Virus record (IMG/VR): IMGVR_UViG_3300025157_000003
Span: 1 to 25,529 of that record
DNA from: a virus
DNA length: 25,529 nucleotides
Strand: one strand, 5' to 3'
The position numbers and the translations under genes were made by a program. Positions 1-25,529 of the stretch are shown here, piece after piece. The notes under the pieces were generated by a model, which ran no database searches, was not told the origin of the DNA, and saw nothing but the letters and a program-made list of their open reading frames with translations. Each line of letters starts with the position of its first letter. The first letter of the stretch is position 1.

Positions 1-6
1 GCTCGC

Positions 7-6301: not shown

Positions 6302-6316
6302 GGCCGGGGAGAAGAA

Positions 6317-6340
6317 CGCAACGCCCGGCCGCGCGTTGCG
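6317..6340 (+). other. Hairpin in the leader of the major capsid gene
   Basis: CGCAACGC (6317-6324) pairs with GCGTTGCG (6333-6340), an 8-bp stem with an 8-base loop. No T-run follows, so it is not a typical terminator. It could stabilise or process the capsid mRNA. Confidence 0.35.
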
Positions 6341-6391
6341 CCGGGACGGATATCCGGGGACCTAACGGCGTCTTTTCGATCAGGAGGAAGC

Positions 6392-7783: not shown

Positions 7784-7901
7784 CTCGGACCGTCAAGACG
7801 CGATCGGTCTTCCTTGCCTCGGATCGGACGGGGCGCGCGGAGCCGCGAGGTTCCGCCGCCCCTCCGGTCTAGGGGCGACGGGTCCCGCGAGGAGGCGGAG
7901 C

Positions 7902-8597: not shown

Positions 8598-8600
8598 GCC

Positions 8601-9158: not shown

Positions 9159-9161
9159 CCG

Positions 9162-9758
9162 GTGCTTACGTTCGCTCTGGAAGGCGGGATCGGGCCGAAG
9201 GCCGCGAAGGCGATGGCCGACGCGACGAAACGCGCCGTGTTGGCGGTCGCGCTCGACGTGCGCGAGGGCGTGATCGGGAACCTGCGCGGAGACCCGCTCA
9301 ATACCAAGAGCGGGACGCTGATCGGCAGCTGGAACCGGTTCCCGGAAACGGGCGAGGATTCCGGGGGCGCGTTCGCCAAGCTCGCCTCGTCCGTCGTCTA
9401 CTCCGCGATCCACGAATTCGGCGGGACGGTCGTCCCGGTGCGCGCGCGAAGGCTCACGATCCCGCTCGACGCCGTGAAGAACGCGTCCGGAACGCGGACG
9501 AAGTTCTCGGCGCGCGAGCTGTTCGACAGCCCCGGCTTGCTCGGCTTCGACCGGGTGTTCGTGCGCAAGGGCGGGCGCGCGGTCTTGGGTGCGCGTCCGG
9601 GCAAGGCCGGCGAGGTCGTCCCGCTCTTCGCCTTGGTGGACAGCGTGAAAATCCCTCCGCGGAAGTACGTGTCGGACGCGATCAAGGCGACGCGCGGGAG
9701 GGTCGCGCGGATCGTCAAGGACGCGGTGGAATTCGCGTTCGGTAGGGCCGGCTCGTGA
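9162..9758 (+). CDS. Tail/neck completion protein, HK97 gp10 or GpG-like morphogenesis type
   Basis: A 198-residue protein. The motifs VVYSAIHEFGGTVVP and LVDSVKIPPRKYVSDAI are typical of phage virion-morphogenesis / HK97 gp10-like neck proteins, where a Y-x-x-x-HEFGG strand and a terminal P-x-R-x-[FY] segment are conserved. It would act at the head-tail interface. The GTG start is 4 bases after the previous stop, with GAGGTGA as SD. The stop overlaps the next start in the GTGA/ATGA style. Confidence 0.75.
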   Translation: MLTFALEGGIGPKAAKAMADATKRAVLAVALDVREGVIGNLRGDPLNTKSGTLIGSWNRFPETGEDSGGAFAKLASSVVYSAIHEFGGTVVPVRARRLTIPLDAVKNASGTRTKFSARELFDSPGLLGFDRVFVRKGGRAVLGARPGKAGEVVPLFALVDSVKIPPRKYVSDAIKATRGRVARIVKDAVEFAFGRAGS

Positions 9759-10117
9759 TCCCGATCCTGGCGTTCGAGACCAAGACGTGCTCGGTCGCGC
9801 GTCCGACGCGAACGGACGCGGCGCACACGCTCCACCACAATATCGGTTGGGCCGACGTGTCGGGCATGTCGTCGGTTCCGATCTCGTTCCAGCCGCGCGG
9901 GCAAAGGCCCTTCGGGACCGATGTCGGCATAATCTATGACGAGGCGGCGGACGCTTGGATCGATTCCGACAACCTCCCGAGCGGGGGCGCGATTCTTACC
10001 GGAGACCGCCTCACGATTTCTTCCGTCGTTTGGGACGTGGTCTCGGCCGAGCTGATCGAGCAGGGCGGGATCGACCGGCACTACAGACTGTCGCTCCGCA
10101 AGGTGCAGAGCGCGTAG
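9755..10117 (+). CDS. Putative head-closure / joining protein
   Basis: A 120-residue beta-rich protein (RLTISSVVWDVVSAELIEQGGIDRHYRLSLRKV). Its GTG overlaps the previous stop. Size, position after the gp10-like gene and the ending fit a small head-closure (SPP1 gp16-like) protein, but no diagnostic motif stands out and the usual gene order would put head closure before gp10. The call rests mainly on synteny. Confidence 0.45.
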   Translation: MIPILAFETKTCSVARPTRTDAAHTLHHNIGWADVSGMSSVPISFQPRGQRPFGTDVGIIYDEAADAWIDSDNLPSGGAILTGDRLTISSVVWDVVSAELIEQGGIDRHYRLSLRKVQSA

Positions 10118-10130
10118 CAGAGGAGGCGGG

Positions 10131-10547
10131 ATGAGCGGCGCGTTGACCGAGAGCATGTACGTTCAGCCGCAGACGCAGCTCACGGGCGGAACGACGTACG
10201 CCGAGGTGGCCGGGACGAAGATCGACGCCCACGGGCAGCCGTACCGAACCGTGGGCTACTCGGTCGCGCTCCCCACGTCGAACTACGCGGCCGTCGTCAA
10301 GGTCCAGGGCAGGATCGCGCAGGACGACGACGGCGACTGGGTGGACCTCAAGGCGTTCGACGAGACCGGGACGCAGCACTCCTCGGCAGACGTGGACATT
10401 GCGGCCGGTGGGCGCAAGTACCTCATCCTGACGCCGAACGCGATCTCGGGAGCGCACTCCGCGTTCCGCGAGTATCGCGTCATGGCGAAGGCGAAGAATT
10501 CCGACGCCGATACGCACGTCCGCGTGCGCGGCATCGCGAAGATGTAG
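10131..10547 (+). CDS. Hypothetical small virion protein
   Basis: A 138-residue beta-rich protein (NYAAVVKVQGRIAQDDDGDWVDLKAFDETG, YRVMAKAKNSDADTHVRVRGIAK), starting at an ATG with a perfect GAGGAGG. The sandwich-like strand pattern suggests a virion surface domain or minor tail protein placed between neck and tail-completion genes. No family could be recognised. Confidence 0.55.
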   Translation: MSGALTESMYVQPQTQLTGGTTYAEVAGTKIDAHGQPYRTVGYSVALPTSNYAAVVKVQGRIAQDDDGDWVDLKAFDETGTQHSSADVDIAAGGRKYLILTPNAISGAHSAFREYRVMAKAKNSDADTHVRVRGIAKM

Positions 10548-10562
10548 CCGGAGGACGTGCGG

Positions 10563-11066
10563 GTGGCGACCAGCTTCGGAAGGAAGAGGATAGCCGAGTG
10601 GATCGGGACGCGCATCCGCCAACTCGACATCGACGACGAGCTCTCGCTCAAGACCGTCCAGTTCGGCTCGCTCGAGGAGTTCCCGGCGGTCAAGACTCTC
10701 TCCGACCACGTGCCGGCCGTTTTCGTCCGCATCGAGAGGATGAGCCCGACGAGGCTGGAGACGGCGAACGGCAAGACCTACTTCGACGAGTATCAGGGAC
10801 GCGCGGTGCTGGTGACGGCGATCCCGGACTCGGCGACTTCCGATCCGGAAGCCAAGAGGGACGACGTGGAGAGGATCGCGGACGTGGTGAGGGAGAACTT
10901 CGACGGGACGGGCCTGTCGCTGGGATCGACCCAGCAGCAGGTCTTCGCGTTCGTGACCGGGATCGAATACTACCCGCCCGAGGACGGGGCGGTCAAGGCG
11001 AGCGGCGCGCGCCTGATGGCGGGCGCCGTGACGTTCACGGTCCGCGTGCAAAGCACGCTCCTTTGA
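10563..11066 (+). CDS. Tail completion / terminator-like protein
   Basis: A 167-residue alpha-beta protein (FGRKRIAEWIGTRIRQL, VPAVFVRIERM, YQGRAVLVTAI, DVERIADVVRENFDG, ARLMAGAVTFTVRVQS) with the alternation and size of siphovirus tail terminator proteins that cap the tail and bind the neck. It directly precedes the tail tube gene, the expected place. GTG 10563 is preferred over GTG 10557, since GGAGG (10550-10554) is 8 bases away from the former and only 2 from the latter. Confidence 0.6.
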   Translation: MATSFGRKRIAEWIGTRIRQLDIDDELSLKTVQFGSLEEFPAVKTLSDHVPAVFVRIERMSPTRLETANGKTYFDEYQGRAVLVTAIPDSATSDPEAKRDDVERIADVVRENFDGTGLSLGSTQQQVFAFVTGIEYYPPEDGAVKASGARLMAGAVTFTVRVQSTLL

Positions 11067-11095
11067 TCGGCCGACCTTGACGACGAGGAGGACAT

Positions 11096-12073
11096 TTGGC
11101 TATCGCTCGCGGCCAGGAGAGCTACATCATGCTCGGCGAGGAGTCGACGTACGGCACGGCCGTCGTGCCGACCGCCGGACTCCTGCACAACACGGAGTCG
11201 CTGACCGTCACCGAAGAGATGACCCAGGCGAACTCGCTCAACCGGCGGGGCGTCCACAGCGGGATGCGGGCCCAGGGCAAGATCACGGTCGGCGGAAGCT
11301 TCGCCTTCGACGTCCGGTTCAACTGGCGGGCGTTTTCGATGCTGCTCAAGCACGCCATCGGCTCGGTCGCCACGTCGCGGCCGGACATCACGTCCAATCC
11401 GCTCGTCTACAACCACACGTTCACGCCGGCGACGGCGCTTCCGACCGGGTTGACCGTCGAGGTCGCCAAGGATCTGCACGCGCACCGATTCAGCGGCTGC
11501 AAGGTGCGTTCGCTGGAGCTGGCGTTCGCGGCCGGCGGACAGCTCGTCTGCACCGTCGACTTCGTCGGCAAGGACCAGACGTGGGTCTTCGGGCCGACCG
11601 CGCTCGCGCTTTTGGGCGGCGAGGGACAGCTCGCGACCGCGACGGCCGGCGCGCTCACGTGGGGCGGCGCGACGCAAGGCAAGGTTCTGGCGGGACGCTT
11701 CCGGGTGGACAATCCGCTCCAGGACACTCTCGCGATAGACGCGAGGACGATCCAGGAGCCGCAGCGCAACGGATTCCAGGTCTTCACCGGAGACTGGACG
11801 TTCCAGACCGAGGGCACGGATCTCCAGAGCGACTACCGGAACAAGACGCGGAGGGAACTCGTCGTCACGCTCGACGGCGAGACGATCAGCTCGACCTACA
11901 AGTTTCGCGTGCGTGCGACGATGTCGAACGCCGAGCTTCTGGAAACGCCCTTCCAGCCGGCCGACAATCAGGGGATCCTCCAGGCGACGGTCGGATACCA
12001 GGCGTTCGTGAACGAGAGCGTGGCGAACGAAGTCGCGTTCCTCTTGCAGAATTCGCACCCGGTAGCCGCTTAG
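11096..12073 (+). CDS. Tail tube protein
   Basis: A 325-residue protein. The N-terminus (ARGQESYIMLGEESTYGTAV) is a hallmark of siphovirus tail tube proteins, followed by beta strands such as GKITVGGSFAFDVRF, LELAFAAGGQLVCTVDFVGK, and a second half with related strands (DWTFQTEGTD, RELVVTLDGETI, ATVGYQAFVN), in line with a tube made of beta-rich subunits. It polymerises around the tape measure protein. The TTG start is supported by GAGGAGG, and the initiation region resembles that of the fibre gene at 1200. The chaperone pair follows at once. Confidence 0.75.
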   Translation: MAIARGQESYIMLGEESTYGTAVVPTAGLLHNTESLTVTEEMTQANSLNRRGVHSGMRAQGKITVGGSFAFDVRFNWRAFSMLLKHAIGSVATSRPDITSNPLVYNHTFTPATALPTGLTVEVAKDLHAHRFSGCKVRSLELAFAAGGQLVCTVDFVGKDQTWVFGPTALALLGGEGQLATATAGALTWGGATQGKVLAGRFRVDNPLQDTLAIDARTIQEPQRNGFQVFTGDWTFQTEGTDLQSDYRNKTRRELVVTLDGETISSTYKFRVRATMSNAELLETPFQPADNQGILQATVGYQAFVNESVANEVAFLLQNSHPVAA

Positions 12074-12093
12074 GGATCGGGAGGAAGAAAGAG

Positions 12094-12816
12094 ATGTCGC
12101 AGGAAGGCAAGGAAGAAAAGCCGGTCGGCATCGCGGAGGCTCTCGGTCGGAAGTGCGTGGAGTGGACGGACCGAACGGGCAGGCGGCACTCGCTCCCGAC
12201 GCTGGTCTTTTCGGACTGGGCCGAGATCGAAGACGAATTCGGTCCCGTGGACACGTGGGCGCAGCCGAAGAACGCGTGCGGCCGGATGTGGGGAGCCGCG
12301 ATCTGGAGGTCGATGCGCCGCGAAGGCTTGAGCCGCGCCGACGTGCTTGCCGCGAAGTGGACGCTCCGATTCGAACACGCTTGCGAGCTGGTTCCGGTCG
12401 GCACGGGCACGTTCGAGGCGGAGGACGCGTTCGGAACCGTCCAGACCTTCCATCCGCTCACGCTCCTCGATCTCGTTCTGGCCGAGAAGGACTTCGGACC
12501 GAGCGTCGAATGGGTCCCTCCCTTCCCCGTCCGGATGGTCCTGCGGCTCGTATGGCTGTCGCTGCGGAAGCAGGGGAAGCCTCCGGAGCTCGTCGCGACG
12601 GGCGACGCGGCCATGACGGAGAAGGAAGCGTCCGTCCTCTTCCCTCCGCAGGTGGCGTCGCGGGAGGAGTTCGCGCGCATCCTCGACCGCGACAGGATCT
12701 CCGGCGTCCAGAAGCTGTGGGCGGACCTCCTCGCGGGGAGCGGGATCGCGGTCAGGGCCGCAGCGGAGTCGCAAGCCTCGGACCCTCAGCCCGCCGCGCC
12801 GACTGGCGCGGCATGA
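12094..12816 (+). CDS. Tail assembly chaperone, first frame (gpG-like)
   Basis: A 240-residue protein between the tail tube and tape measure genes, the position of the lambda gpG/gpGT chaperone pair. It has an N-terminal SLPTLVFSDWAEIEDEFG segment, a helical LVLAEKDFGPSVEWVP / VRMVLRLVWLSLRKQ part and a Ser/Ala/Pro-rich end. ATG 12094 was chosen because GGGAGGAAG precedes it and the open frame upstream overlaps the tail tube gene. Its stop overlaps the next start (ATGA) and the second ORF is in the -1 frame. The protein would bind the tape measure before tube assembly. Confidence 0.6.
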   Translation: MSQEGKEEKPVGIAEALGRKCVEWTDRTGRRHSLPTLVFSDWAEIEDEFGPVDTWAQPKNACGRMWGAAIWRSMRREGLSRADVLAAKWTLRFEHACELVPVGTGTFEAEDAFGTVQTFHPLTLLDLVLAEKDFGPSVEWVPPFPVRMVLRLVWLSLRKQGKPPELVATGDAAMTEKEASVLFPPQVASREEFARILDRDRISGVQKLWADLLAGSGIAVRAAAESQASDPQPAAPTGAA

Positions 12817-12977
12817 TCGCGACGGCAGTGGCGTTCGGCGTCTCGCTGGCGGAGGTCGAAGCCATGGACATCCTGATGCTTCGCGACGTGCTCGACGCCA
12901 AGCGCAGACTCGCGGCGGACTCGGCGGTGTTGGGAAGCGGAGCGCTGTTCGGATCCGTGCCGCGTCCGGTCGGCTGA
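12813..12977 (+). CDS. Tail assembly chaperone, second frame (gpT-like)
   Basis: A 54-residue ORF beginning ATG 12813 within the upstream stop (ATGA), too short for most gene callers. It reads IATAVAFGVSLAEVEAMDIL then LRDVLDAKRRL, the small helical module (GVSxxEVxxM) common in the second chaperone ORF. It lies in the -1 frame relative to the first ORF, as in lambda G-T, and is open well upstream of the ATG, so it could be made either by reinitiation or as a -1 frameshift fusion. No convincing heptameric slippery site was found by eye. The 93-base gap to the tape measure gene holds a GCCCCT/AGGGGC hairpin (12992-13006). Confidence 0.6.
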   Translation: MIATAVAFGVSLAEVEAMDILMLRDVLDAKRRLAADSAVLGSGALFGSVPRPVG

Positions 12978-13070
12978 GTCAAGCCGCGAGTGCCCCTGGG
13001 AGGGGCGGTCAAGTTCGGGCGCGGCTCGTCGCGGAGGACGGGGGGGACCCGCTAGGGGCGCGAGAAGATC

Positions 13071-16000
13071 ATGGCGGAAGCGATCGGCTTGGAAGTCAGG
13101 ATCGGGGGCGACCCTTCCGCCGCCCTCGGCGCGCTCGACAAGGTCGACTCCGCCCTTAAACACACGACTTCGGGAGCGCAGGCCGCAACCTCGTCCTTCC
13201 TCAAGGTCGGACAGACCATTCAGGCTTGGGGCGACGCCCTCAAGCACGTCGCGGCCGTCGGCAAGCGGGCGTTCGACGCGATTCTCGGCGACGCCATCAA
13301 GGTCGCCGACGAGATCGGCACGTTCTCGAAGCAGACCGGAATCGCGACCGACTCGCTTCAGCGCCTGAAGTTCGCGGCCGAGCAGAGCGACGCCAGCTTC
13401 GGAACGCTTCGCGCCGGGCTCAAGATCCTCCAGCGCAACATGGGAGAGGCGGCGTCCGGCTCGAAGGAAGCCGCCGACGCGTTCGCCCGGATCGGCCTTT
13501 CGACCTCGCAGGTCGCCTCGATGGACGTGGAACAGGTCTTCGAGCGCATCGCGGACGTGATGGCCGACGAGGCCGTTCCCGACGCGCAGAAGATGTCGCT
13601 GGCGATGGACCTGATGGGCCGTTCGGCGAGCGAGCTCCTGCCTCTCCTCAAGCAAGGCGGAGAAGGCATCCGGGCCTTTGGGCAGGAAGCGGAGGAGCTC
13701 GGCGCGGTCATGAGCGACGAGACGATCCAGGCGACGAAGGACTTCGAGGACAATCTCAAGGCGATCAAGACGGCGATTTTCGGGGCGTCGTCCGTGATCC
13801 TGAAAGAGCTCGCGCCGTCGCTCAAGGAGTGGACCGACGCCGTCCGGAAGCGCATGCCGGAAGCGATCCAGTGGGTCAAGGACTTCGTCAAGGCGATCAG
13901 GATCGCGGCGGAGAACCTGCGCTACTGGGGAGAGATCGCCGGCATCGCCGTCGGGAACGTCATCGGAGGATTCCGCGACCTGATCAAATTCCTCGGGCTG
14001 TTCGGGCGCGAGTTCGTCGGGCTCCTGGGCGACATCCTGGACAATGCCGTGCCGCTCTTCCGATCGGCCGGAGCGGCGATGGTCGAGGCTCTCAAGGCGG
14101 GCCTGACCGGCAAGGCGTTCGACTTCGCTTCGGTGGTCGGGGGCCTGGAGCCTTTCCTCGGCAAGCTGTCCGAGCGCATCGCGACGGTCGCGAACGCGGC
14201 CGGAGAGGTGGTGGAGACGCTCTCGTCCGGATTCGAGTCCGCGGAGCGCAGGCACCGGCAGAACGTCGAGCGAATCGTCGAGGACCAGGAAAAGCTCCGC
14301 GACGCCTTCGATTCGACGGCGAAGGCCGCCGCGAGGATGACGACGCTCTCGGAAGAAGGCCGGGGTCGGCCAAAGAGGCCGGAAAGCGCGGCGTTCGGAC
14401 CGGAACGGCTCGTCGGAGGCCTCGTCGCTCCAGGTCAGGAAATCGCCGGCGCCGAGTTCGTCGCGAGGAGGAAGTTCGGAAGCCTGCTCGAGTACGAGCA
14501 GTTCAGGGAACGCGTCGCGCTGGCGAAGCGGTTCGCGGCCGGCGAAGGAAGCAGGATCGAAGCGCAGGCGCTGAGGACGAAGCACAAGCTCGAACGGGAA
14601 CTCGGGATGCGCTTGAACGACGAGCAGCTGAAGCAGGCGCTCGAATTGGAGAACGAGGTCGCGGAAGAGAGGCGGCGCATCGACGCGACGACGCGGGGCC
14701 AGGAACGGAAGGCCGCTCTCAAGGAACTGGAAGAGACGAGGAAGCAGGCGGTCAAGGCCTTGGCCGACAAGATGAAGGACGAGAAGGACAAGAAGTCGCT
14801 GCTGTACAAGCAGGAGAGAGAGCACGTCGACAAGATCGGGCAGCAGCGCAAGCGGATCGGCGAAGAGGAAGCGGCGGACCGGAAGAGGGTCCAAGACGAC
14901 GAGATGCGCCATCTCGACGAGGTGCTGCGGAAGAGGAAGGAGGCGGCGTCCTCGCCCATGGGAGTCTCGGCCGCCGGGCCGCTGGAAGCGACGGCGGGCG
15001 TGACGACCGGCGGCACGGGCATCTCCGGACTGTTGAGCGCGATCCGCGAATGCGTATGCCGCGCGCCCGAGGCCGTGGCGAGCATGTCCGGCATCGCGAC
15101 CGTCTCGACCGTCGCGGGAGGCGGTGCAGTCGCGTCGGGCGTCGAGAGTCTGCTGGGAACCGTGGTGGCGCTCTTGACGCAAGTCGTCGCGTGCGTGTGC
15201 CCCCGGTGCTGCCCGCAGCCGTTCCTGACGACCGGAGGCGGCGGAACGACCGGCCCGATCTCTCCCTACGCGGCTGGAGGGCGGTTTGCCGGCGGCGGAG
15301 TAGGAGGCGTCGCGCTTGCCGGCAATCTCGTCGGAGGCGCGGGCGCGCTCGGGCTGGCCCTCGGCGGCGGCGGCGGACTCATCAATCCGTTCGGAGGATT
15401 CGGAGCGGCCAATCTGTTCGGCGGGGGCGCCGCGTTCGGAGGGCCCGCCGCGGTCGGCGGCTGTCCTCCCGGCACGAATCCGGATCCGATCACGGGAGAA
15501 TGCGTCCCGTATGCGGCCGGCGGCGGAACCAGCGTGCTTTCGCTCTTCCAGAGCGGCCCTTTGGCGAACGATCCGCGCGCGCCATTGCTGGCGCAACAGA
15601 TCGCGCAGAAGTTCCCGGGCATGAATCCGGCATCCATCGCGATGCTCGTCCAGGCGATCCTCCTCGGCGGGGCAACGCCTCCGCCCGGTATCACGGTCCC
15701 GCAGATGCCGGCCGCGCCGCAAGGGCCGATGCCGACTCCGAGCGCGGGGCAGCGCGAGCTCGCTTCTCTCGCCGAGCGCGGCCTGCTCTCGATGGAGCAG
15801 ATCGCGCAGATCCAGTCCGGAGGAGGCGGGATGACGATGCTTCCCGGCTTCGATCCGACCGGAGGGATCGAGGCGGTAGACAGGTTCGGCAAGCCGATCG
15901 CGGGCGTTGGCGGAGGAGCCGTCGCCGCGCCCGCGTTCGACCTCTCGCGCTACGTCGGAGGTCTCGCGACGACGGGAATGGCCGAGGAGATCTTCGCGCG

Positions 16001-16274
16001 GCTGACCGGCGAGGCTCCGGGCGCGGCCGAGACGCCGGAAGAGGCCAACACCAAGGCGACGCAGGAGAACACGACCGCGCTCCGCGACATGGCGGCCAAG
16101 CTTCAGATGATCGGCGCGACCGGCGGGACGGCGACGACGCAAGGCGGCGGACAGACCGTCGTCTACAACGACTATTCGACCGGAGGGGACGCCGCGACCA
16201 AGGAGCGCTTCCGGCTCTGGCGCGAGCAGCGATGGGAAGTGCAGATGCGCGAGGCCCAGCAGGGGAACATCTAG
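13071..16274 (+). CDS. Tape measure protein
   Basis: A 1067-residue protein that sets tail length and is ejected ahead of the DNA. The N-terminal 250 residues are typical tape-measure helices (VGQTIQAWGDALKHVAAVG, EIGTFSKQTGIATDSLQRLK, AADAFARIGLSTSQVASMD, ASELLPLLKQGGEGI). Hydrophobic helices follow (WGEIAGIAVGNVIGGFRDLI), then a long charged coiled-coil at about residues 470-625. After that come Cys-rich clusters (ECVC; ACVCPRCCPQP; GGCPPGTNP...GECVP), Gly-rich stretches, and a C-terminal part with an ENTTALRDMAAKLQ helix. By the known ruler of about 0.15 nm per residue, it would give a tail of about 160 nm. The GTG of Dit follows 4 bases after its stop. Confidence 0.8.
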   Translation: MAEAIGLEVRIGGDPSAALGALDKVDSALKHTTSGAQAATSSFLKVGQTIQAWGDALKHVAAVGKRAFDAILGDAIKVADEIGTFSKQTGIATDSLQRLKFAAEQSDASFGTLRAGLKILQRNMGEAASGSKEAADAFARIGLSTSQVASMDVEQVFERIADVMADEAVPDAQKMSLAMDLMGRSASELLPLLKQGGEGIRAFGQEAEELGAVMSDETIQATKDFEDNLKAIKTAIFGASSVILKELAPSLKEWTDAVRKRMPEAIQWVKDFVKAIRIAAENLRYWGEIAGIAVGNVIGGFRDLIKFLGLFGREFVGLLGDILDNAVPLFRSAGAAMVEALKAGLTGKAFDFASVVGGLEPFLGKLSERIATVANAAGEVVETLSSGFESAERRHRQNVERIVEDQEKLRDAFDSTAKAAARMTTLSEEGRGRPKRPESAAFGPERLVGGLVAPGQEIAGAEFVARRKFGSLLEYEQFRERVALAKRFAAGEGSRIEAQALRTKHKLERELGMRLNDEQLKQALELENEVAEERRRIDATTRGQERKAALKELEETRKQAVKALADKMKDEKDKKSLLYKQEREHVDKIGQQRKRIGEEEAADRKRVQDDEMRHLDEVLRKRKEAASSPMGVSAAGPLEATAGVTTGGTGISGLLSAIRECVCRAPEAVASMSGIATVSTVAGGGAVASGVESLLGTVVALLTQVVACVCPRCCPQPFLTTGGGGTTGPISPYAAGGRFAGGGVGGVALAGNLVGGAGALGLALGGGGGLINPFGGFGAANLFGGGAAFGGPAAVGGCPPGTNPDPITGECVPYAAGGGTSVLSLFQSGPLANDPRAPLLAQQIAQKFPGMNPASIAMLVQAILLGGATPPPGITVPQMPAAPQGPMPTPSAGQRELASLAERGLLSMEQIAQIQSGGGGMTMLPGFDPTGGIEAVDRFGKPIAGVGGGAVAAPAFDLSRYVGGLATTGMAEEIFARLTGEAPGAAETPEEANTKATQENTTALRDMAAKLQMIGATGGTATTQGGGQTVVYNDYSTGGDAATKERFRLWREQRWEVQMREAQQGNI

Positions 16275-16277
16275 GCC

Positions 16278-17054
16278 GTGCCGACGACGATCTTCCGCTA
16301 CGACACTCTCGACCTTCAGGATGAGGCGAACGGCCTGGCGGTCTCGGCTTTCGTTCTGCCCGACCGGACCCGCGTTCCGAGCGAGGTCGCGCCGCGCCGG
16401 CACGGCGTCGTCCGCACGGAGGAACCGACGCTCACCGAGCGCGTGCTCGCGTTCTCCGGGACGATCAAGCAGGACACGGCGGCCCTTCTGAGGACCAAGC
16501 TCGACGACGTGCTCAAGACGATGAACGGGACGGAGAAGCAGTTCTACCTGTACGACACGACGCGCTACATCGTCTGCACGAAGACCGAATTCCGCTCGCG
16601 CTTCCGTCCGGGTCCGGCAATGACGGTACTCGACTACGACTGCGAGCTGTTCGCCTCGGACCCGTTCTGGATCGCGGCGACCGGGACGACAGACACGCAG
16701 ACGGCCTCGAATTGGCCGACGAGCGCGCTCTCTTGGACCCACACGAATTCGGGCAGCGCGCTCGTCTTCCCGACCTACACGGTTACGGCAAACGTCGCCG
16801 GGGCGGTGGCCGGTCCGATCACGCTCACGAACTCGACGACGGGCAAATCGTGGACGTTTTCGGCGACCATCGCGAGCGGAAAGTCCATGGTCTTCAACAC
16901 GGCGAACTTCACGGTCACGAACGACGGCGCGGACGCGATCAATTCGATGACCGGAGTTCCGGTCTGGCTCACGAGCGGATCCAACAGCTTGAGTTTCAGC
17001 GGCGGCAACGCCACCTTCAAGATCGCGTACAACGCGCGCTACTACGGACCCTGA
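16278..17054 (+). CDS. Distal tail protein (Dit-like)
   Basis: A 258-residue protein following the tape measure gene, the standard position of Dit, the hub that joins the tail tube to the baseplate. The N-terminal domain has the expected FSGTIKQDTAALLRTKLDDVLKTM and MTVLDYDCELFASDPFW segments. The C-terminal half (ITLTNSTTGKSWTFSATI...NFTVTNDGADAIN, VPVWLTSGSNSLSFSGGNATFKIAY) is a beta-sandwich of the galectin-like kind used by evolved Dits to bind host carbohydrates. GTG start, stop 4 bases before the next gene. Confidence 0.7.
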   Translation: MPTTIFRYDTLDLQDEANGLAVSAFVLPDRTRVPSEVAPRRHGVVRTEEPTLTERVLAFSGTIKQDTAALLRTKLDDVLKTMNGTEKQFYLYDTTRYIVCTKTEFRSRFRPGPAMTVLDYDCELFASDPFWIAATGTTDTQTASNWPTSALSWTHTNSGSALVFPTYTVTANVAGAVAGPITLTNSTTGKSWTFSATIASGKSMVFNTANFTVTNDGADAINSMTGVPVWLTSGSNSLSFSGGNATFKIAYNARYYGP

Positions 17055-17057
17055 ACC

Positions 17058-17393
17058 ATGGCTCTGCCGATCATCCTCGAAGGCTCGGAAGGCACGAGCG
17101 GCGGGACCTCCCCCGCCGACGATGCCGGCGCGTACTTCGAGCTGGAGCTGTGGCAGGTAGCCGGCCTGGACTTCGGCGCGACTCTCACGCGCAAGAAGGT
17201 CTTCCGCGCGCAGCTCGCCGAGGCGCACTGGGACTACGACCGGATCGGAGGCGCCGGGAAGGGCGAATTCGTCGTCGAGGGCGGTGTCGCCGACATGGAC
17301 GAGGCCGTGCAGACCCAGTGGGAGATACGGCTCCTGCGCGAGGGCGCGATCTGGTATCGCGCTCGCCTGACTGCCTACGAGCACTTCACCTGA
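17058..17393 (+). CDS. Baseplate protein, N-terminal part (ends at in-frame TGA)
   Basis: A 111-residue piece. After MALPIILEGSEGT it reads FELELWQVAGLDFG, WDYDRIGGAGKGEFVVEG and WEIRLLREGAIWYRARLTAYEHFT, the N-terminal half of a common phage upper-baseplate domain in which the WYRxR strand runs straight into an EGY..L segment. Here a TGA at 17391-17393 stops translation between these strands, and the same frame resumes the domain ([18 protein letters not shown]) without any shift. On its own the product would be missing half of the domain. It is either the short form of a readthrough pair, or a gene broken by a nonsense mutation or base error. Confidence 0.65.
   Translation: MALPIILEGSEGTSGGTSPADDAGAYFELELWQVAGLDFGATLTRKKVFRAQLAEAHWDYDRIGGAGKGEFVVEGGVADMDEAVQTQWEIRLLREGAIWYRARLTAYEHFT
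17391..17393 (+). other. In-frame TGA interrupting a baseplate/fibre gene
   Basis: The codons either side are in one frame (ATG 17058 and ATG 17418 are both multiples of 3 apart) and encode parts of one apparent domain. The stop is followed by C (TGAC), a context known to be leaky in bacteria. No SD stands before ATG 17418. TGA is used as a normal stop in many genes here (746, 838, 8597, 9758, 19769), so it is not a genome-wide sense codon. Confidence 0.6.
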
Positions 17394-20053
<2,660 letters not shown>

Positions 20054-20073
20054 CGCGACCTGGAATCGGACGT

Positions 20074-20102
20074 TTGACGCATACGGATCGCGACGCCATA
20101 AT
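20074..20102 (+). promoter_or_regulatory. Sigma-70-like promoter
   Basis: TTGACG (20074-20079), a 17-base spacer and CATAAT (20097-20102): five of six consensus matches in each box. It lies in the 84-base gap after the fibre module, and its expected start (near 20109) leaves a leader of about 29 bases with GAGGAGG before the GTG at 20138. It likely drives the following virion and lysis genes. Confidence 0.65.
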
Positions 20103-20137
20103 GGCTGCGTGACCGCTCGCTTGAGGAGGATACGCTC

Positions 20138-20485
20138 GTGCGCGGACAGATCAAACGCTTGGCCGGTCCGGCCTTTCTGGGCACTTCGGCGGCCGACGTG
20201 CTTGCCGAACCGGCCGCCGGCCACTACTACGTCATCTATCACATCCACGTCGTCAACGTCGGGGCCGCTTCGACGTATTCCCTGTTCCTGGGAGCGACCG
20301 GCGGCAGCGCGGCCGGGACGCAGATCGGCGGCGGAACGAGGTCGATCGGCGCGAACGCGCGCGACGACGTCTATTTTTCCGCCGGGCTCGTGCAGGAAAA
20401 CACGAAGTTCCTGTCGGGCATCGCGGCCGACGCTTCGCGTCTGGTCATTACCGTGATGGGCACGCACCACGTTTCCAGCGCGTAA
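20138..20485 (+). CDS. Small beta-rich virion-type protein
   Basis: A 115-residue protein with a jelly-roll-like strand pattern (YYVIYHIHVVNVGAASTYSLFLGATG, GANARDDVYFSAGLVQENTKFLSG, RLVITVMGTHHV). Similar short proteins are common in phage tail regions but uncharacterised. It has its own promoter and a perfect SD (GAGGAGG, 20123-20129), so it may be made in large amounts, as a decoration or tail-surface protein would be. The 86-base gap after it holds a direct repeat of GCGATCGGTCG (20487 and 20531). Confidence 0.55.
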   Translation: MRGQIKRLAGPAFLGTSAADVLAEPAAGHYYVIYHIHVVNVGAASTYSLFLGATGGSAAGTQIGGGTRSIGANARDDVYFSAGLVQENTKFLSGIAADASRLVITVMGTHHVSSA

Positions 20486-20571
20486 GGCGATCGGTCGTCG
20501 CGCCATGGCAATGCGATCCGATCCGGGCACGCGATCGGTCGGAGGCGCGCGAAGACGGACGGGATGAAAGC

Positions 20572-20973
20572 GTGGACGAGACGACGCAGGCGTTGGGCGC
20601 GCTGGCCGCGAGGCTCGACGGTCTCCAGCAGACCCTCTCGGGGCTGCTCTCCGACATCAAGGTCCAGATCGCGGCCACGGCCGAGATGAGGGCGAAGCTG
20701 GAGGAAGTCGGGAAGGATCTGAAGAGGCTGTTCGGCCGAGTCGAGAAGTTGGAAGAAGCCTCCGCGCCGAACGAGACGGAGATCCGGGACCGCGCGCGGC
20801 AGGAGATCGAGGAGGCGCAGCACGTCCGGGACGTAGACGCCAGGCTGGCGCGGCTTGAGCAGGCTCGCGCGGCGGTCCGCGGGGGCGCTTGGGACTTCGC
20901 GAAGTGGCTCGGAGCCGCGGCGGGAGGCGGAGGCGTCATGAAGCTGCTGGACTGGATCTTCGGAGGACCGTGA
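20572..20973 (+). CDS. Coiled-coil protein with C-terminal membrane segment (XhlA-like)
   Basis: A 133-residue protein: a long amphipathic coiled coil (LAARLDGLQQTLSGLLSDIK, AEMRAKLEEVGKDLKRLFGRVEKLEEA) followed by a C-terminal hydrophobic, Gly-rich segment (WDFAKWLGAAAGGGGVMKLLDWIFGG). This is the layout of XhlA/hemolysin-type phage membrane proteins that act alongside a holin. The GTG start gives the full coil; the upstream SD is weak. The next gene begins two bases after its stop. A coiled-coil membrane protein unrelated to lysis is also possible. Confidence 0.55.
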   Translation: MDETTQALGALAARLDGLQQTLSGLLSDIKVQIAATAEMRAKLEEVGKDLKRLFGRVEKLEEASAPNETEIRDRARQEIEEAQHVRDVDARLARLEQARAAVRGGAWDFAKWLGAAAGGGGVMKLLDWIFGGP

Positions 20974-20974
20974 C

Positions 20975-21445
20975 GTGGGCGCGTTGAGGGCTCTGGTCGT
21001 CGAGGACGACGCGAAAGTAGCCGAGCTCGTCCGCTGCGTTCTCGCGGAGGCGGGGGTCGAGGTCTCCGTGGCTGCGACGGTCGCGGAGGCCGAGTCGCTC
21101 ATGGCCGAGGCGATGCCGGACGTCCTGTTTACCGATCTGTCCTTGCCGGACGGAAGGGGCGAAGACATGCTCCGCCTCATGGAGATTCGGGGGGATCGAG
21201 TCCCGACGGTCGTCGTCAGCGGGGACCTGCCGGGAGCCGGAAATCTGCCTCGGTGGGCCGTGGCGGTCGCGAAGCCTCTGGAAATCGCGCGTCTGCCCGG
21301 GATCCTCCGCGACGCCGTACGCGGGCTCGGACCGGCTTGCTCGGGCCGCGGCGGGATCTCCGGCCTCTGCGACCGCGTCGAGGCCATGACGCGCGCGGTG
21401 GAGGAGACGAGGCGCGAGATACGCCACGCCGGGTGGGCGCGATGA
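20975..21445 (+). CDS. Stand-alone CheY-like response regulator receiver
   Basis: A 156-residue protein with a complete receiver domain: acidic pocket E10/D11/D12 (ALVVEDD), phosphoacceptor D54 in VLFTDLSLPDG, switch S82 in TVVVSGD and K100-P101 in AVAKPLE. The spacings (42, 28, 18) match the family. The remaining about 35 residues are a short helical tail (CDRVEAMTRAVEETRREIR) with no DNA-binding or enzymatic output domain. It sits between the XhlA-like gene and a one-helix membrane peptide and is coupled to the latter (ATGA overlap). Phospho-signals from a host kinase could act on it, or it might titrate phosphate or a partner. No kinase gene is present here. Confidence 0.85.
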   Translation: MGALRALVVEDDAKVAELVRCVLAEAGVEVSVAATVAEAESLMAEAMPDVLFTDLSLPDGRGEDMLRLMEIRGDRVPTVVVSGDLPGAGNLPRWAVAVAKPLEIARLPGILRDAVRGLGPACSGRGGISGLCDRVEAMTRAVEETRREIRHAGWAR

Positions 21446-21543
21446 CCCGGGACGAATGGGATGCGATGCGGATCGTCGGCATCGCGCTGCTCGTCGCGGC
21501 GGCCGTCTTCGTCGCCCTTATGGCCATCCCATGGAAGCAGTGA
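21442..21543 (+). CDS. 33-residue single-helix membrane peptide
   Basis: An ATG overlapping the receiver's stop (ATGA) begins a 33-residue peptide with an acidic, Trp-containing head (TRDEWDAMR) and one membrane helix (IVGIALLVAAAVFVALMAI), ending PWKQ. Tight coupling to the receiver gene suggests the two act together, for example as membrane partner or small holin/antiholin. This is inference. Confidence 0.5.
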   Translation: MTRDEWDAMRIVGIALLVAAAVFVALMAIPWKQ

Positions 21544-21552
21544 AGATTCGGC

Positions 21553-21581
21553 TTGACAGGGCACGTCGGGGCGTGTAACCT
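21553..21581 (+). promoter_or_regulatory. Sigma-70-like promoter for the lipoprotein gene
   Basis: TTGACA (21553-21558, perfect -35), a 17-base spacer and TAACCT (21576-21581, -10 with T-A....T conserved). It lies in the 116-base gap after the membrane peptide. Downstream the leader contains a perfect inverted repeat, CCGGCCTT/AAGGCCGG (21620-21636), before the GTG at 21660. Confidence 0.65.
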
Positions 21582-21619
21582 TCGCATCCGTCAGCCGCGA
21601 GACGAGATTCGCGGTCCCT

Positions 21620-21636
21620 CCGGCCTTCAAGGCCGG
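21620..21636 (+). other. Perfect hairpin in the lipoprotein leader
   Basis: CCGGCCTT (21620-21627) and AAGGCCGG (21629-21636) form a near-continuous palindrome in the leader between the promoter and the GTG at 21660. No T-run follows. It could affect mRNA stability or bind a dimeric protein. Confidence 0.4.
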
Positions 21637-21659
21637 GGGCCGTTGCGCGAGGGCAGGGA

Positions 21660-22277
21660 GTGGAAATCAGGAAGCATTCGCGGCTTGTTGCCGCGAACCC
21701 CACAGACACTCTCCTTTCCGATGCGGGGGAGCGGACCGGGAACCTCCTCGGTCCGCTCCGTCCTTTCCTGCTCGCTGCCGGGCTCCTGTGCGGAGCGTGT
21801 CTGCTAAGCTGCCAATCGCCCGAGGCCGTTCGCCACGGCGACCGGCTCGCCGCCCGATCCGAGGAAGCCTACGCGCGCGGAGTCGAGTCGCTCGTGCGCG
21901 CGACCGCCGAATCGCTGCGCAAGGCGCGCCGGCAGCATGCGCTCGACCTCTTCGACCTCGCCTGGGGCGAAAAGGTCGGGGCCGACGGGAAGATCGCCAG
22001 CGAGGACGCGAAGCGGCTCTCGGCCGACCTGGAGGCCAGGTACGGCGAGGCCGACGACGACTACGCGCGCGTCATGACGGCGCTCGCGAAGGCCCGCCTG
22101 AATCTGCAGGATGCCCGCGACCTCCGCGCCGCCTTGACCGACTACCTCGGCGCGGCCGGGGTCCAGAAGTCGACGGTGGACGCCGTGCTTGAGGAGGTCG
22201 GTAGGCGGGTCGGATCGGCCGATATCTTCCGCGCGCCGGAGGTTTCCGGGGCCTCGACGGGCGGCGGGGGGGAATAG
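21660..22277 (+). CDS. Putative phage lipoprotein
   Basis: A 205-residue protein with a lipoprotein signal: hydrophobic core PFLLAAGLLCGACLLSC with lipobox LLSC, lipidated Cys at about residue 51. The n-region is unusually long (about 34 residues), but no later ATG, GTG or TTG exists in frame before the core, so GTG 21660 is the only canonical start. The mature part is helical and charged (RLAARSEEAYARGVESLVRATAESLRKARRQ...) and ends in a Gly-rich tail. It could be a spanin-like lysis factor or a surface-exclusion lipoprotein carried as a moron. Its own promoter supports the latter, its position the former. Confidence 0.65.
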   Translation: MEIRKHSRLVAANPTDTLLSDAGERTGNLLGPLRPFLLAAGLLCGACLLSCQSPEAVRHGDRLAARSEEAYARGVESLVRATAESLRKARRQHALDLFDLAWGEKVGADGKIASEDAKRLSADLEARYGEADDDYARVMTALAKARLNLQDARDLRAALTDYLGAAGVQKSTVDAVLEEVGRRVGSADIFRAPEVSGASTGGGGE

Positions 22278-22289
22278 GGAGAAACCGCG

Positions 22290-22514
22290 ATGTCGGAACA
22301 GGATCGTCCGACCGAGGGAGCATCTGCTGCCGACAAGCTCCACAACCTGCGCTGGAAGAACGTGGACGTGTCCGGAGTCCCGGACCGGCAAGCCGGCGAC
22401 GAGGAGAAGGCGGCGGCGATCCAGGGGATCAAGGACGCGAAGACCGCGAAGGAGCTCGTCGCGCGCGCGATCGACCTCGCCGTGGGGCTCGGGGCGAAAT
22501 TCCTCGCGGGTTGA
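22290..22514 (+). CDS. Hypothetical small protein
   Basis: A 74-residue protein between the lipoprotein and the putative holin. The N-terminal half is charged (SEQDRPTEGASAADKL); the C-terminal half is a helical, increasingly hydrophobic segment (KELVARAIDLAVGLGAKFLAG). A GGGAGAAA sequence acts as a weak SD. No family recognised; a minor lysis-linked peptide is possible. Confidence 0.5.
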   Translation: MSEQDRPTEGASAADKLHNLRWKNVDVSGVPDRQAGDEEKAAAIQGIKDAKTAKELVARAIDLAVGLGAKFLAG

Positions 22515-22541
22515 CTAGTTCGATGTTTCGGAGACTCGATC

Positions 22542-22751
22542 ATGGCGCTGCTCAAGAGCCGCAAGTTCGTCGCGGCCGTGATCGGGGTCCTCGTCGTCGT
22601 CGCGGTTCATCTCGGGATCGACGAGGCGAAGGCGAAGCAGATCGCCGACTGGGCGGGGGCGCTGCTGCTCGCCTACATCGGCGGCACGGCGCTGGAGGAC
22701 GCGGGCGCGAAGCGCGCGAACGGAAATGGAGTCGGACATCCTCCGAAGTAG
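22542..22751 (+). CDS. Putative small holin-like membrane protein
   Basis: A 69-residue protein with two hydrophobic segments, FVAAVIGVLVVVAVHLGI and ADWAGALLLAYIGGTALEDAGA, separated by a short charged turn, and a hydrophilic C-terminus. The LLKSRKFVAAVIGV start and the AYIGGTALED second helix are typical of small phage holins and holin-like proteins. It follows the lipoprotein and XhlA-like genes, as lysis genes would. No endolysin is visible in the window, so the call is tentative. Confidence 0.55.
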   Translation: MALLKSRKFVAAVIGVLVVVAVHLGIDEAKAKQIADWAGALLLAYIGGTALEDAGAKRANGNGVGHPPK

Positions 22752-22787
22752 GTTCGGATCTCGGGCATTGGGGCAAGGGGGACGGAT

Positions 22788-23522
22788 GTGGAAACGGAGC
22801 GCGCGGCTCCCGTCTTGAGCTACGTCACCGGGACGGTCGATCGCCCCGAGGGCCTCGCTCGCCTGATCGCCTCCCTCGCCAAGCACACCCCTTTTCCCTG
22901 GGAGGCGCGCGTCGGCGACGCGTCCGAATCCGGCTACGCCAGAAACCATGAGTTTCCGCTCGGACGCGTAATCGTCGACCGCCAGCAGCCGCGGCCGACG
23001 ATGGTCCAGACCTACGATCGCCTCTTCCGCGCCTGCGCCGGGGCCTGGGTGCTCTGGCTCAACGACGACGCGGAGGTCATGCCCGGCGCTCCTGCAGCGG
23101 CACTGCGCTTCATGGAGGCCAACCCGGAAGTCGGATGCGGTGCGCTCTACTACCAGGAGGGGCTGGGCAGCGTCTGGCGCGTCAACGAGTACAAGGGGAT
23201 GGTCTACGCGAACTTCGGCATCCTCCCCCGCGAATTCGGCGACCGAATCGGATGGTTCGGGACGGAGCTCGCGAGCTACGGCTGCGACAACCGGATCTCG
23301 TTCGAGACGCTCTTGGCCGGGAAAGGCGTCGTCGGGATTCCGGACGCGCGCGTCGTCCACCACGTCGATGCCAACCCGCGCAAGGAGCGGCAGAGCCGGG
23401 AGTACCGGCCGCATGCCTCGGCGTGGCTGGAGAGCGCCTACGGTCGGAAGCTGACGGCCATGCGCGCCGTCCACGACCGCTTCGCGCGACTGAACCCGTG
23501 CGGCAACGTCTTGGAACGGTGA
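22788..23522 (+). CDS. GT2-family glycosyltransferase
   Basis: A 244-residue protein with a GT-A fold: SYVTGTVDRPEGLARLIASL, then TMVQTYDRLFRACAGAWVLWLNDDAEVMPG, where D93-D94-A-E96 lies at the metal/nucleotide-sugar position. FMEANPEVGCGALYY and IGWFGTELASYGCDNRISFETL follow and correspond to the acceptor/catalytic side, and VHHVDANPRKE ends the domain. It would transfer a sugar from a nucleotide donor to an unknown acceptor. GTG is chosen since the ATG two bases earlier hits a stop quickly. It starts a run of four genes with overlaps or short gaps, ending in a methyltransferase, and so may belong to a glycan-modification set. Confidence 0.75.
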   Translation: METERAAPVLSYVTGTVDRPEGLARLIASLAKHTPFPWEARVGDASESGYARNHEFPLGRVIVDRQQPRPTMVQTYDRLFRACAGAWVLWLNDDAEVMPGAPAAALRFMEANPEVGCGALYYQEGLGSVWRVNEYKGMVYANFGILPREFGDRIGWFGTELASYGCDNRISFETLLAGKGVVGIPDARVVHHVDANPRKERQSREYRPHASAWLESAYGRKLTAMRAVHDRFARLNPCGNVLER

Positions 23523-23523
23523 C

Positions 23524-23982
23524 ATGGACGACACGCAAGAGCCGGAAGATCGCGAGCGCCCTCGGGTCGCGAAGACGGTGTTCGACTACCTCGCGGACGA
23601 GGTGAAGATCGGAGCCGGCCCTTCGGCCACGGTCCAGACCGTCCGGGATCGCCTCGCCGAGCTGGTCCTGCGAAACCAGGGCGTCGACCCCAGGGTGTGG
23701 CCCGGGGTCGGTATCGAGACCCGCCCGGACTCGCCGACCGGATTCGTCGGCCTGACCCCGAACGAGTCGATGGAGCTCCAGAGGATGTTGGGGACCATCG
23801 ACGGGTTGACCGCTGCGGCCGGGGAAGTGGAGGCCGAGATCGAGGCCGCGATGAGGATCATCGGAGCCGCGATGGACGAGATCCGGGTGAAGATGAAGGA
23901 GACGGCGACGCGGGCAATCCTGACCGCGTCCAGGGGGATCTTGGGACCTGATGGGAAGCTGCGCGCGCGGGGGAGAGAGTAA
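23524..23982 (+). CDS. Hypothetical helical protein
   Basis: A 152-residue protein, starting one base after the glycosyltransferase stop. The middle has VGIETRPDSPTGFVGLTPNESMEL and the C-terminal half is a long helix (AAGEVEAEIEAAMRIIGAAMDEIRVKMKE), perhaps a coiled coil. The next gene begins 2 bases after its stop. No known family; position between sugar-modifying enzymes suggests co-expression, not function. Confidence 0.5.
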   Translation: MDDTQEPEDRERPRVAKTVFDYLADEVKIGAGPSATVQTVRDRLAELVLRNQGVDPRVWPGVGIETRPDSPTGFVGLTPNESMELQRMLGTIDGLTAAAGEVEAEIEAAMRIIGAAMDEIRVKMKETATRAILTASRGILGPDGKLRARGRE

Positions 23983-23984
23983 CG

Positions 23985-24167
23985 ATGTCTCGCCGCCACC
24001 GATCTTTCCCGCGTCCAGGTCGCGCGCTCGCCAAGAAGATGGACCGCGACGATCGCGGACTCTGTCGCGCGTGCGGGAAAGATCCATGTCAGTGCAAGTC
24101 CGCGGCTTGGTGGAGATCGGACGCGAACAAGACGGGGAAGAGAAAACGACCGAGGAGCAAGCCGTGA
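23985..24167 (+). CDS. Small basic protein with Cys cluster
   Basis: A 60-residue, strongly basic protein with a compact cluster CRACGKDPCQC (four Cys, CxxC followed by CxC) that may bind zinc, in an Arg/Lys-rich context (SRRHRSFPRPGR; KRKRPRSKP). It might bind nucleic acid. The stop overlaps the next GTG (GTGA). Function unknown. Confidence 0.5.
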   Translation: MSRRHRSFPRPGRALAKKMDRDDRGLCRACGKDPCQCKSAAWWRSDANKTGKRKRPRSKP

Positions 24168-25399
24168 GCGTTCGGCTTCACGTGGGGAGCGGGACCGTCT
24201 ACCTGGATCCCGCCGACGGCTGGCGGAACGTCATGCCGTCGGGGTACGGCGTCTTCCTCGCCTCCGAACGCCCGGACCTCGTGGAGAAGTGGCGGACGAC
24301 GGATGACGCCTATTACGCCCGCCACGATCGCACCGCGGACAGCCTGCGCGACGGTCCGGTCACGACCGAGGAGCTATGCGACGTCTACGGATCGTTCGAG
24401 CGCCTCCCGTGCGGGCTCGAACAGGCGGACGAGATCCTCGCGCGCCAGGTCTTCGAGCACCTGTCGATCAAGGAGGCGCGCCTTGCCTTGGACGAGTGCG
24501 ACCGCGTGCTCAAACCGGACGGAGTGCTGAGGCTGGACGTGCCCGACCACGAGGAGACGCTGCGGCGCTACCGGCTCACGGGAGATCCGTTCTTCGTCCG
24601 CCACGTCCTGGGCTCGAAGCGGAACGAGGCCGCGTACCACGTCATGGCCTACACGCGCGAGGCGCTGCGCGCCCTGGTCGAAGAGCACGGATTCGACTTC
24701 GAGGCGGAGGAGCCGAGCCCGAACGTCGCGCCCTCGTTCTGCCTGCGGTTCCGAAAACCGGGACCGAGGGCGGCATGGCAATACGTCCCGCAAGATCTTC
24801 TCGTCGTCCCCGACGAGGCGTTCGTGGTCGAGTTCGGCCCGGGCACGCGGCCGTGGCCGAGATCCGACGTGCTGATAGACCGCGATCGGGCTTTCCTGGA
24901 TTCCGCCACGGAAGTCAACTTAGTCGGGCGTCGGATCGAAAAGGTCGCGGCCGACCTCGATCTCGCGCTCAAAGGAGGCGACCGGCTACCGTGGGCGACC
25001 GGTCGATTCGACTTCCTCTTCGCGTCGCACGTCCTGGAGCACGTCAGGAATCCGGGAACGGTTGCGCAAGAGTTCGCGCGGATTGCCAAGCGCGGCCTGA
25101 TCGTCGTGCCGTCGATCCTCAAGGAGGGACTGACGGCGTTCGAGGAGGGAAGTCACATGTGGTGGAGCTTGCCGCCGAGGGAGGGATCGAAAGCCCTGCG
25201 GATGATCCGCGCGAACTACGAGTGGCGGTCCAAGATCGCCGACCCGGATGCGAGCGGGTGCCTATCGCGGATCTTTCGCACCGGCCCATTCCGGCTCGAC
25301 CACGATGCGCGCGTGCTGCGAAAATGGTGGAGGCGGGTCGAGCCCGCGCTCGACGTGGTGCACGCATGGCAGGGGACGCTGGAGGTCGAGTGCCTGTGA
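24164..25399 (+). CDS. Tandem SAM-dependent methyltransferase-like protein
   Basis: A 411-residue protein with two class I methyltransferase-like units. First: glycine loop LHVGSG (5-10), VFEHL (96-100), RVLKPDGVLRLDVPD (114-128). Second: VVEFGPGTRP (221-230), DVLID, FASHVLEHVRNP (286-297), IVVPS. The first unit's loop is followed by a segment lacking a clear acidic ribose-binding residue, so it might be inactive. GTG 24164 was chosen because it overlaps the previous stop and GAGGAGC lies upstream; the longer open frame overlaps two genes. It would methylate an unknown acceptor, plausibly a sugar or glycoprotein given the adjacent GT2 gene. Confidence 0.7.
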   Translation: MSVRLHVGSGTVYLDPADGWRNVMPSGYGVFLASERPDLVEKWRTTDDAYYARHDRTADSLRDGPVTTEELCDVYGSFERLPCGLEQADEILARQVFEHLSIKEARLALDECDRVLKPDGVLRLDVPDHEETLRRYRLTGDPFFVRHVLGSKRNEAAYHVMAYTREALRALVEEHGFDFEAEEPSPNVAPSFCLRFRKPGPRAAWQYVPQDLLVVPDEAFVVEFGPGTRPWPRSDVLIDRDRAFLDSATEVNLVGRRIEKVAADLDLALKGGDRLPWATGRFDFLFASHVLEHVRNPGTVAQEFARIAKRGLIVVPSILKEGLTAFEEGSHMWWSLPPREGSKALRMIRANYEWRSKIADPDASGCLSRIFRTGPFRLDHDARVLRKWWRRVEPALDVVHAWQGTLEVECL

Positions 25400-25529
25400 C
25401 CGACGTTCGCATGATCGAGGTCGCGCACCCGTATCGCGGTCCGAACGGCGCGCTCGACGTGATCGGGCAGGATGGACTCCCGTTCCCGGTCGCGCGAGCG
25501 TTCCGGATCGCCGGGGTCCCGCCTGGAGC
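25396..25529 (+). CDS. Partial hypothetical protein, cut by window end
   Basis: A GTG overlapping the methyltransferase stop opens a frame that runs without a stop to the window end: (M)TDVRMIEVAHPYRGPN and ALDVIGQDGLPFPVARAFRI. Only 44 complete codons are visible, too few to assign. The coupling suggests it belongs to the same operon. Confidence 0.5.
   Translation, partial: MTDVRMIEVAHPYRGPNGALDVIGQDGLPFPVARAFRIAGVPPG

Follow-up and report, generated by a model that had tools for sequence, protein, structure and literature searches.

How phages couple the time of lysis to the physiology of their host is a long-standing question for which few worked examples exist, T4 lysis inhibition and phage N4 being among them. 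For N4, a preprint has described the pinholin gp63, which has a single membrane segment and is regulated via its cytosolic part (PMC12642591). Receivers encoded by phages have been placed in other contexts: those of phages V22 and A5 were published as class II auxiliary metabolic genes (PMC7289586, PMC10579305), that of phage R8W was published as PhoB (PMC8228385), and the A5/V22 receiver travels with a host-recognition module that is shared by transfer (PMC10579305). A phage protein able to bind host histidine kinases, PIT4, has also been described (PMC10714779). A lysis link for phage receivers was not found in the open-access literature; this link is proposed here, and the published work on the V22, A5 and R8W receivers did not draw it. 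The analysis concerned a stand-alone receiver gene in a virus record of 25,529 bases (IMGVR_UViG_3300025157_000003), the whole of which is referred to as the window. An earlier note, made from the sequence alone, had described the gene as a complete CheY-like receiver encoded in a phage lysis region.

The receiver gene and its surroundings in the window

The window derives from a marine, GC-rich, siphovirus-like phage, whose structural genes encode an XkdF-type protease, an HK97-like capsid protein, a head-tail connector, a tail tube, a tape measure and an SPP1-type Dit. In the IMG/VR search, a sister contig of 44,062 bases (IMGVR_UViG_3300009444_000017; L010), with 99.95% identity over window 6278-25529, was the sole close relative of the window, and in INPHARED no close relative was found of the window receiver or of the 25-kb DNA. 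A glycosyltransferase gene (window 7902-8597; phrog_7009, E=3e-6) separates the genes of the major capsid protein and of the head-tail connector. At window 1-330, what reads as glycosyltransferase and DNA gyrase B fragments is fused to phage sequence, and the sister contig carries another upstream gene at the matching joint (L010 11049-11525); this left end looks like an assembly chimera. The sister contig additionally holds a large-terminase ORF of 962 aa (L010 4130-7018) with an intein-like insert (GGCFAADTRIPLLDG...YDLEVDEWCNFGLCAGVFVHN) towards its C-terminal part, and a cytosine-5 DNA methyltransferase (L010 2251-3696) followed by a Vsr-like mismatch endonuclease (about 3660-4097), both recognised by inspection. 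Downstream of the lysis region, a cargo block (window 22788-25399 and L011) encodes a glycosyltransferase and tandem methyltransferase domains; inspection added sugar-cupin proteins and an aminotransferase of the DegT type. This content suggests changes to surface glycans.

By content and place, the ORF at 20975-21445 is a real gene (Table 1). Its product matched the Pfam profile PF00072 with E=3.4e-12 and 46.9 bits (cut-off 30.2) as well as phrog_731 (E=2.9e-13), and many solved PDB receivers were matched in the sequence search. An AlphaFold2 model based on an 8-row alignment of phage receivers (mean pLDDT 78, pTM 0.66) retrieved the KdpE, PhoP and PmrA receivers from the PDB with Foldseek (best E=1.8e-8, TM-score to target about 0.8), so that a CheY/OmpR receiver fold, (beta-alpha)5, is predicted; the single-sequence AlphaFold model reached a pLDDT of 63 and gave no significant structure match. 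The identity assigned in the earlier note was thus borne out by sequence and by predicted structure, and the signature residues that it named are present (E10/D11/D12, D54, S82 and K100), with D11, D54 and K100 invariant in an alignment of eight phage receivers. The word complete was slightly too strong: the PF00072 match spans only profile positions 2-78 of 111 and stops at residue 83, the distance from S82 to K100 is short, with 18 residues against 22 in CheY, and alpha4 is a mere turn in the AlphaFold2 model. An output domain, which the note had reported as lacking, was found neither as a second Pfam domain nor in the model, where past residue 118 there is only helix, alpha5 running on as one long helix to residue 151. 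No domain beyond the receiver was found in the window protein, and the labels PhoB and auxiliary metabolic gene, which refer to a DNA-binding output domain or a metabolic function, do not fit it.

The receiver gene is separated by 1 nt from the gene of a coiled-coil protein upstream and overlaps the putative gene of a 33-aa peptide downstream, and is probably translationally coupled to both. The coupling to a tiny membrane peptide claimed earlier agrees with this overlap and with the strong membrane segment of the peptide. At the RNA level, the folding predicted for 21442-21660 did not stand out (z=-0.34). The upstream protein has a clear coil and a weak membrane segment, and the positive-inside rule places its N-terminus inside and its coil in the cytosol. 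It had been called XhlA-like, which may hold for its topology and fails for family membership: with 17.0 bits against Pfam XhlA (PF10779) it reached about half of the cut-off of 34.7, and against phrog_937 it gave E=0.18. The region had also been labelled a lysis region. A weak holin match and a lipoprotein-like ORF within 1.3 kb speak for this label, the latter encoding a possible outer-membrane lysis partner, while among the long ORFs of the 44-kb sister contig no endolysin was recognised; judged from the window by itself, the region would have a weak claim to the lysis label.

Table 1. Features of the window around the receiver gene and gene orders of the receiver pair (membrane coiled-coil protein and receiver) in other phages and contigs
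Source	Feature or gene order	Position	Strand	Basis
Window	Collagen-repeat tail fibre, upstream end of the region	17418..19769	+	PF01391 Collagen E=2.2e-23; phrog_6320 tail fiber E=6.7e-41
Window	Coiled-coil protein of 133 aa, weak C-terminal membrane segment, XhlA-like topology	20572..20973	+	coiled-coil 0.76; mean hydropathy 1.03
Window	Shine-Dalgarno-like GGAGGA within the end of the coiled-coil gene, 7 nt ahead of the GTG start of the receiver	20962..20967	+	read from sequence
Window	Stand-alone CheY-like receiver, 156 aa, GTG start, candidate phospho-acceptor D54	20975..21445	+	PF00072, Foldseek, phage-relative alignment
Window	C-terminal helical extension of the receiver, residues 119-156	21329..21442	+	AlphaFold2: helix 104-151, low confidence at 119-130
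Window	Putative gene of a 33-aa peptide with one membrane segment, start overlapping the receiver stop (ATGA)	21442..21543	+	hydropathy 2.99
Window	Lipoprotein-like protein, hydrophobic leader followed by LLSC lipobox	21660..22277	+	translation; no Pfam/PHROG family match
Window	Small holin-like membrane protein	22542..22751	+	phrog_4712 holin E=1e-3, residues 3-27; weak
A5 (Schitoviridae)	Membrane coiled-coil, CheY-like, Rz-like, two-membrane-segment protein, endolysin
V22 (Myoalterovirus)	Amidase, membrane coiled-coil, receiver, Rz-like, holin-like
PB15	Coiled-coil with C-terminal membrane segment, receiver, M15-type carboxypeptidase, 3TM holin			coiled-coil: phrog_937 hemolysin (XhlA) E=1.8e-16; holin: PF11351 (GTA_holin_3TM) E=3.1e-16
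XX1924	Coiled-coil with C-terminal membrane segment, receiver, 3TM holin			coiled-coil: phrog_937 hemolysin (XhlA) E=1.2e-12
H4/4 and R8W (Foturvirus)	Class II holin, membrane coiled-coil, receiver, two-membrane-segment protein, terminase
R9Y2	Membrane coiled-coil, receiver, GH108 lysozyme beginning at the receiver stop			lysozyme E=1.8e-23
L040, L041	Pair with overlapping Rz/Rz1			Rz-like spanin profile-confirmed in L041
L042	Arrangement like A5
L052-L054	Pair with A5-type endolysin, Rz, holin-like ORF			endolysin phrog_3108; Rz-like spanin profile-confirmed in L052
L049	Pair; endolysin on opposite strand			phrog_465 E=1.6e-31
L027	Pair with holin-like and lipoprotein ORFs			inspection only
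L050	Pair, then terminase
L014, L015	Pair; no recognised lysis gene adjoining

Recurrence of the pair in other phages

Loci in other phages were found with receivers as queries only and never with the neighbouring genes, so that the neighbours were not selected for. INPHARED receiver matches that resembled misfiled bacterial DNA (Listeria LM 4-11-1 and 4-14-1, Acinetobacter MD-2021a, Salmonella contigs and similar) were left out, and Pseudomonas phage Komp_PAO1_1 was rejected as a stand-alone case, its protein being a full NarL-type regulator. In 16 phage genomes or contigs, no two of them identical, a stand-alone receiver immediately adjoins a small coiled-coil protein with a membrane anchor, and a spanin, holin or endolysin was also adjacent in most of them; a search for the same neighbourhood, which the earlier note had suggested as a check, was therefore largely positive. 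Isolated Alteromonas phages of several families carry the pair (V22, A5, PB15, XX1924, H4/4, R8W and R9Y), and in several unrelated phages it sits between tail-fibre and lysis genes. The window itself has the pair, with the membrane segment as its weak point. The count of phages overstates the number of independent events, because V22 and A5 share their module by transfer (PMC10579305). For related phage pairs, the dN/dS of the receiver was about 0.16 (H4/4-R8W), 0.06 (A5-L042) and 0.20 (V22-L041), and these receivers are under purifying selection. On contig L014, the receiver is followed by genes of exported proteins with CxxCH haem-binding motifs (6459-8243 and 8878-9816; CIGCH, CIACH).

In order to define the neighbour, a length of 80-140 aa, a membrane hydropathy of at least 1.0 and a coiled-coil score of at least 0.70 were used, thresholds that were set after examples had been seen and that just admit the weakest case, the window's own. 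With these post-hoc thresholds, four reference phages with 220 genes in total yielded five such genes, of which four immediately precede the receiver gene. The neighbour in R9Y2 has a coiled-coil score of 0.69, and that in Alteromonas phage PT11-V19 (V19) fails on the coil with 0.56. When profiles were compared, no homology was detected between the coiled-coil protein of the window and its counterparts in PB15, XX1924 and L027. By the positive-inside rule, the coil was predicted to be cytosolic in all 14 coiled-coil proteins, for N-terminal and C-terminal membrane segments alike, whereas Rz spanins of the same cassettes had the opposite, outward orientation in four of five cases, the fifth being a tie. 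The coiled-coil protein is therefore predicted to share the cytosolic compartment with the receiver, and its interpretation as an i-spanin was dropped, as the coil is predicted on the side opposite to that of true spanins. A role as mimic of a histidine kinase DHp domain was dropped as well, since there is no conserved His.

The link between receivers and lysis is not universal. In a scan of 29 loci, stand-alone receivers outside this arrangement were found on large contigs of 147-351 kb (L057, L058, L060, L062 and L068), in the proviruses L065/L074 and in L073, L075 and L064. Scattered receivers of this type without any tie to lysis genes had been named beforehand as evidence against the lysis link; they do occur in jumbo-phage contigs and some proviruses. 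Three of the large contigs (L060, L062 and L068; 219-351 kb) carry paired adjacent short Rcp1-like receivers ('IEDNEADFEL...'), which are a second, different phage use of receivers. The receiver of L030 is without the Asp, and V19 has a degenerate receiver (L077 3995-4447) that is without the phospho-Asp and the conserved Lys and still sits behind a small membrane protein; judged by its residues, it would serve as a natural phospho-dead comparison. Acidic pair, phospho-Asp and Lys are all retained in every cassette receiver except that of V19. In a tree, twelve cassette receivers cluster (88/90, below the program's star level), and those of the window, L014, L015 and L027 are placed with receivers of bacterial type. 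The position of the window receiver outside the main cassette clade has weak support, and independent recruitment of receivers into cassettes is suggested.

Possible roles of the receiver

It is considered plausible, with slightly more doubt than confidence, that the gene encodes a cytosolic stand-alone receiver of the late tail-to-lysis block that is paired with the upstream membrane coiled-coil protein and tunes the time of lysis. The computed basis consists of the receiver fold, the intact residues, the tight gene coupling, the recurrent pair, the cytosolic coil prediction and purifying selection on receivers of related phages. Receiver and membrane-anchored neighbour would function as a pair within the late gene block: the receiver would dock on the cytosolic coiled coil, would receive a phosphoryl group from a host histidine kinase or a small phosphodonor, and its state would alter the assembly of the coiled-coil protein or of a neighbouring holin, so that lysis might be advanced or delayed according to host physiology. 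Against this pair model stand the weak lysis matches of the window with no recognised endolysin, the marginal membrane segment, the coiled-coil protein for which homology to those of PB15 and L027 was not found, the placement of the window receiver outside the main cassette clade, the post-hoc thresholds for the neighbour, the stand-alone phage receivers outside cassettes and the degenerate receiver of V19. The wider claim, namely that tailed phages repeatedly put a phospho-receiver into the lysis cassette, where it controls a holin-type coiled-coil protein and the activity of a host kinase or the level of a phosphodonor sets lysis time, is rather doubtful.

The receiver could instead be a decoy or phosphate sink for host histidine kinases that rewires late host signalling, its place on the lysis side reflecting only a late operon or the usual site of accessory genes. 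PIT4 provides a precedent for phage proteins that bind histidine kinases, authors have named relatives of the receiver class II auxiliary metabolic genes or PhoB, and accessory genes (glycosyltransferase, methyltransferases, aminotransferase) do lie downstream of the lysis region of the window. However, a decoy leaves unexplained both the cytosol-facing membrane coiled-coil neighbour in all cassette examples and the insertion between the coiled-coil gene and the spanin or endolysin genes, and this role is judged unlikely. The co-transfer of the A5/V22 receiver with the host-recognition module (PMC10579305), a weak match of the L050 coiled-coil protein to the PHROG 'hol-like chemotaxis' (E=1.4e-3) and the occurrence of the pair in L014, L015 and L050 with no recognised lysis genes adjacent would fit a membrane-proximal signalling or exclusion module, e.g. 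for superinfection sensing or a change of taxis, that is unrelated to lysis and was transferred together with the tail-fibre and lysis block. Such a module appears improbable in view of the several phage families in which Rz/Rz1, holin or endolysin genes follow directly after the pair with overlapping start codons.

A similarly small probability is given to the receiver as an unphosphorylated, antiholin-like binding domain, whose conserved residues would reflect fold stability or recent acquisition. The degenerate receiver of V19 in the same place is in favour of this, and phosphorylation therefore cannot be essential everywhere; moreover, the window receiver is without a normal alpha4, which is part of the usual output face. 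The acidic pair, phospho-Asp and Lys kept by all other cassette receivers and the purifying selection in related phage pairs argue against this role.

The placement of receivers beside lysis genes in unrelated phages suggests an overlooked regulation of host-burst timing. If lysis tuning by the receiver and its membrane partner is true, host phospho-signalling would be linked directly to lysis, with two-component signalling acting on the lysis machinery itself and not on transcription, and a set of genes now listed under auxiliary metabolic genes or PhoB would have to be re-annotated. The question is testable now, since the isolated phages listed above have cultivable Alteromonas hosts.

Comparison with known systems

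The window receiver resembles CheY, Spo0F and DivK (PF00072) in its stand-alone receiver fold, acidic pocket, phospho-Asp, Thr/Ser and Lys. It differs from them in being phage-encoded, in its C-terminal helix and reduced alpha4, and in having a membrane coiled-coil protein as partner instead of a flagellar motor or a kinase. In its predicted topology, its putative partner, with its weak membrane segment, may be compared to XhlA of the PBSX type (PF10779, phrog_937), a small protein of the lysis cassette with a cytosolic coiled coil and a C-terminal membrane segment. The coiled-coil proteins of PB15 and XX1924 belong to phrog_937, whereas the window protein lies below the XhlA cut-off and most other cassette coiled-coil proteins carry the membrane segment at the N-terminus; to our knowledge, no known XhlA cassette contains a receiver. 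In N4, gp63 and the lysis regulator gp62 offer the parallel of a single-membrane-segment holin whose cytosolic helical part regulates lysis timing and lysis inhibition; N4 is without a CheY-type receiver, 'Receiver domain' being a mere name for a short stretch of gp63 (PMC12642591). Counterparts of the receiver gene are V22 gp30 and A5 gp11 (both CheY-like) and R8W g48 and H4/4 gp44 (both annotated as PhoB), which are of the same gene kind, share about 20-30% identity with the window receiver and occupy the same location after the tail fibre and behind a membrane coiled-coil gene, with a spanin, holin, endolysin or terminase coming next.
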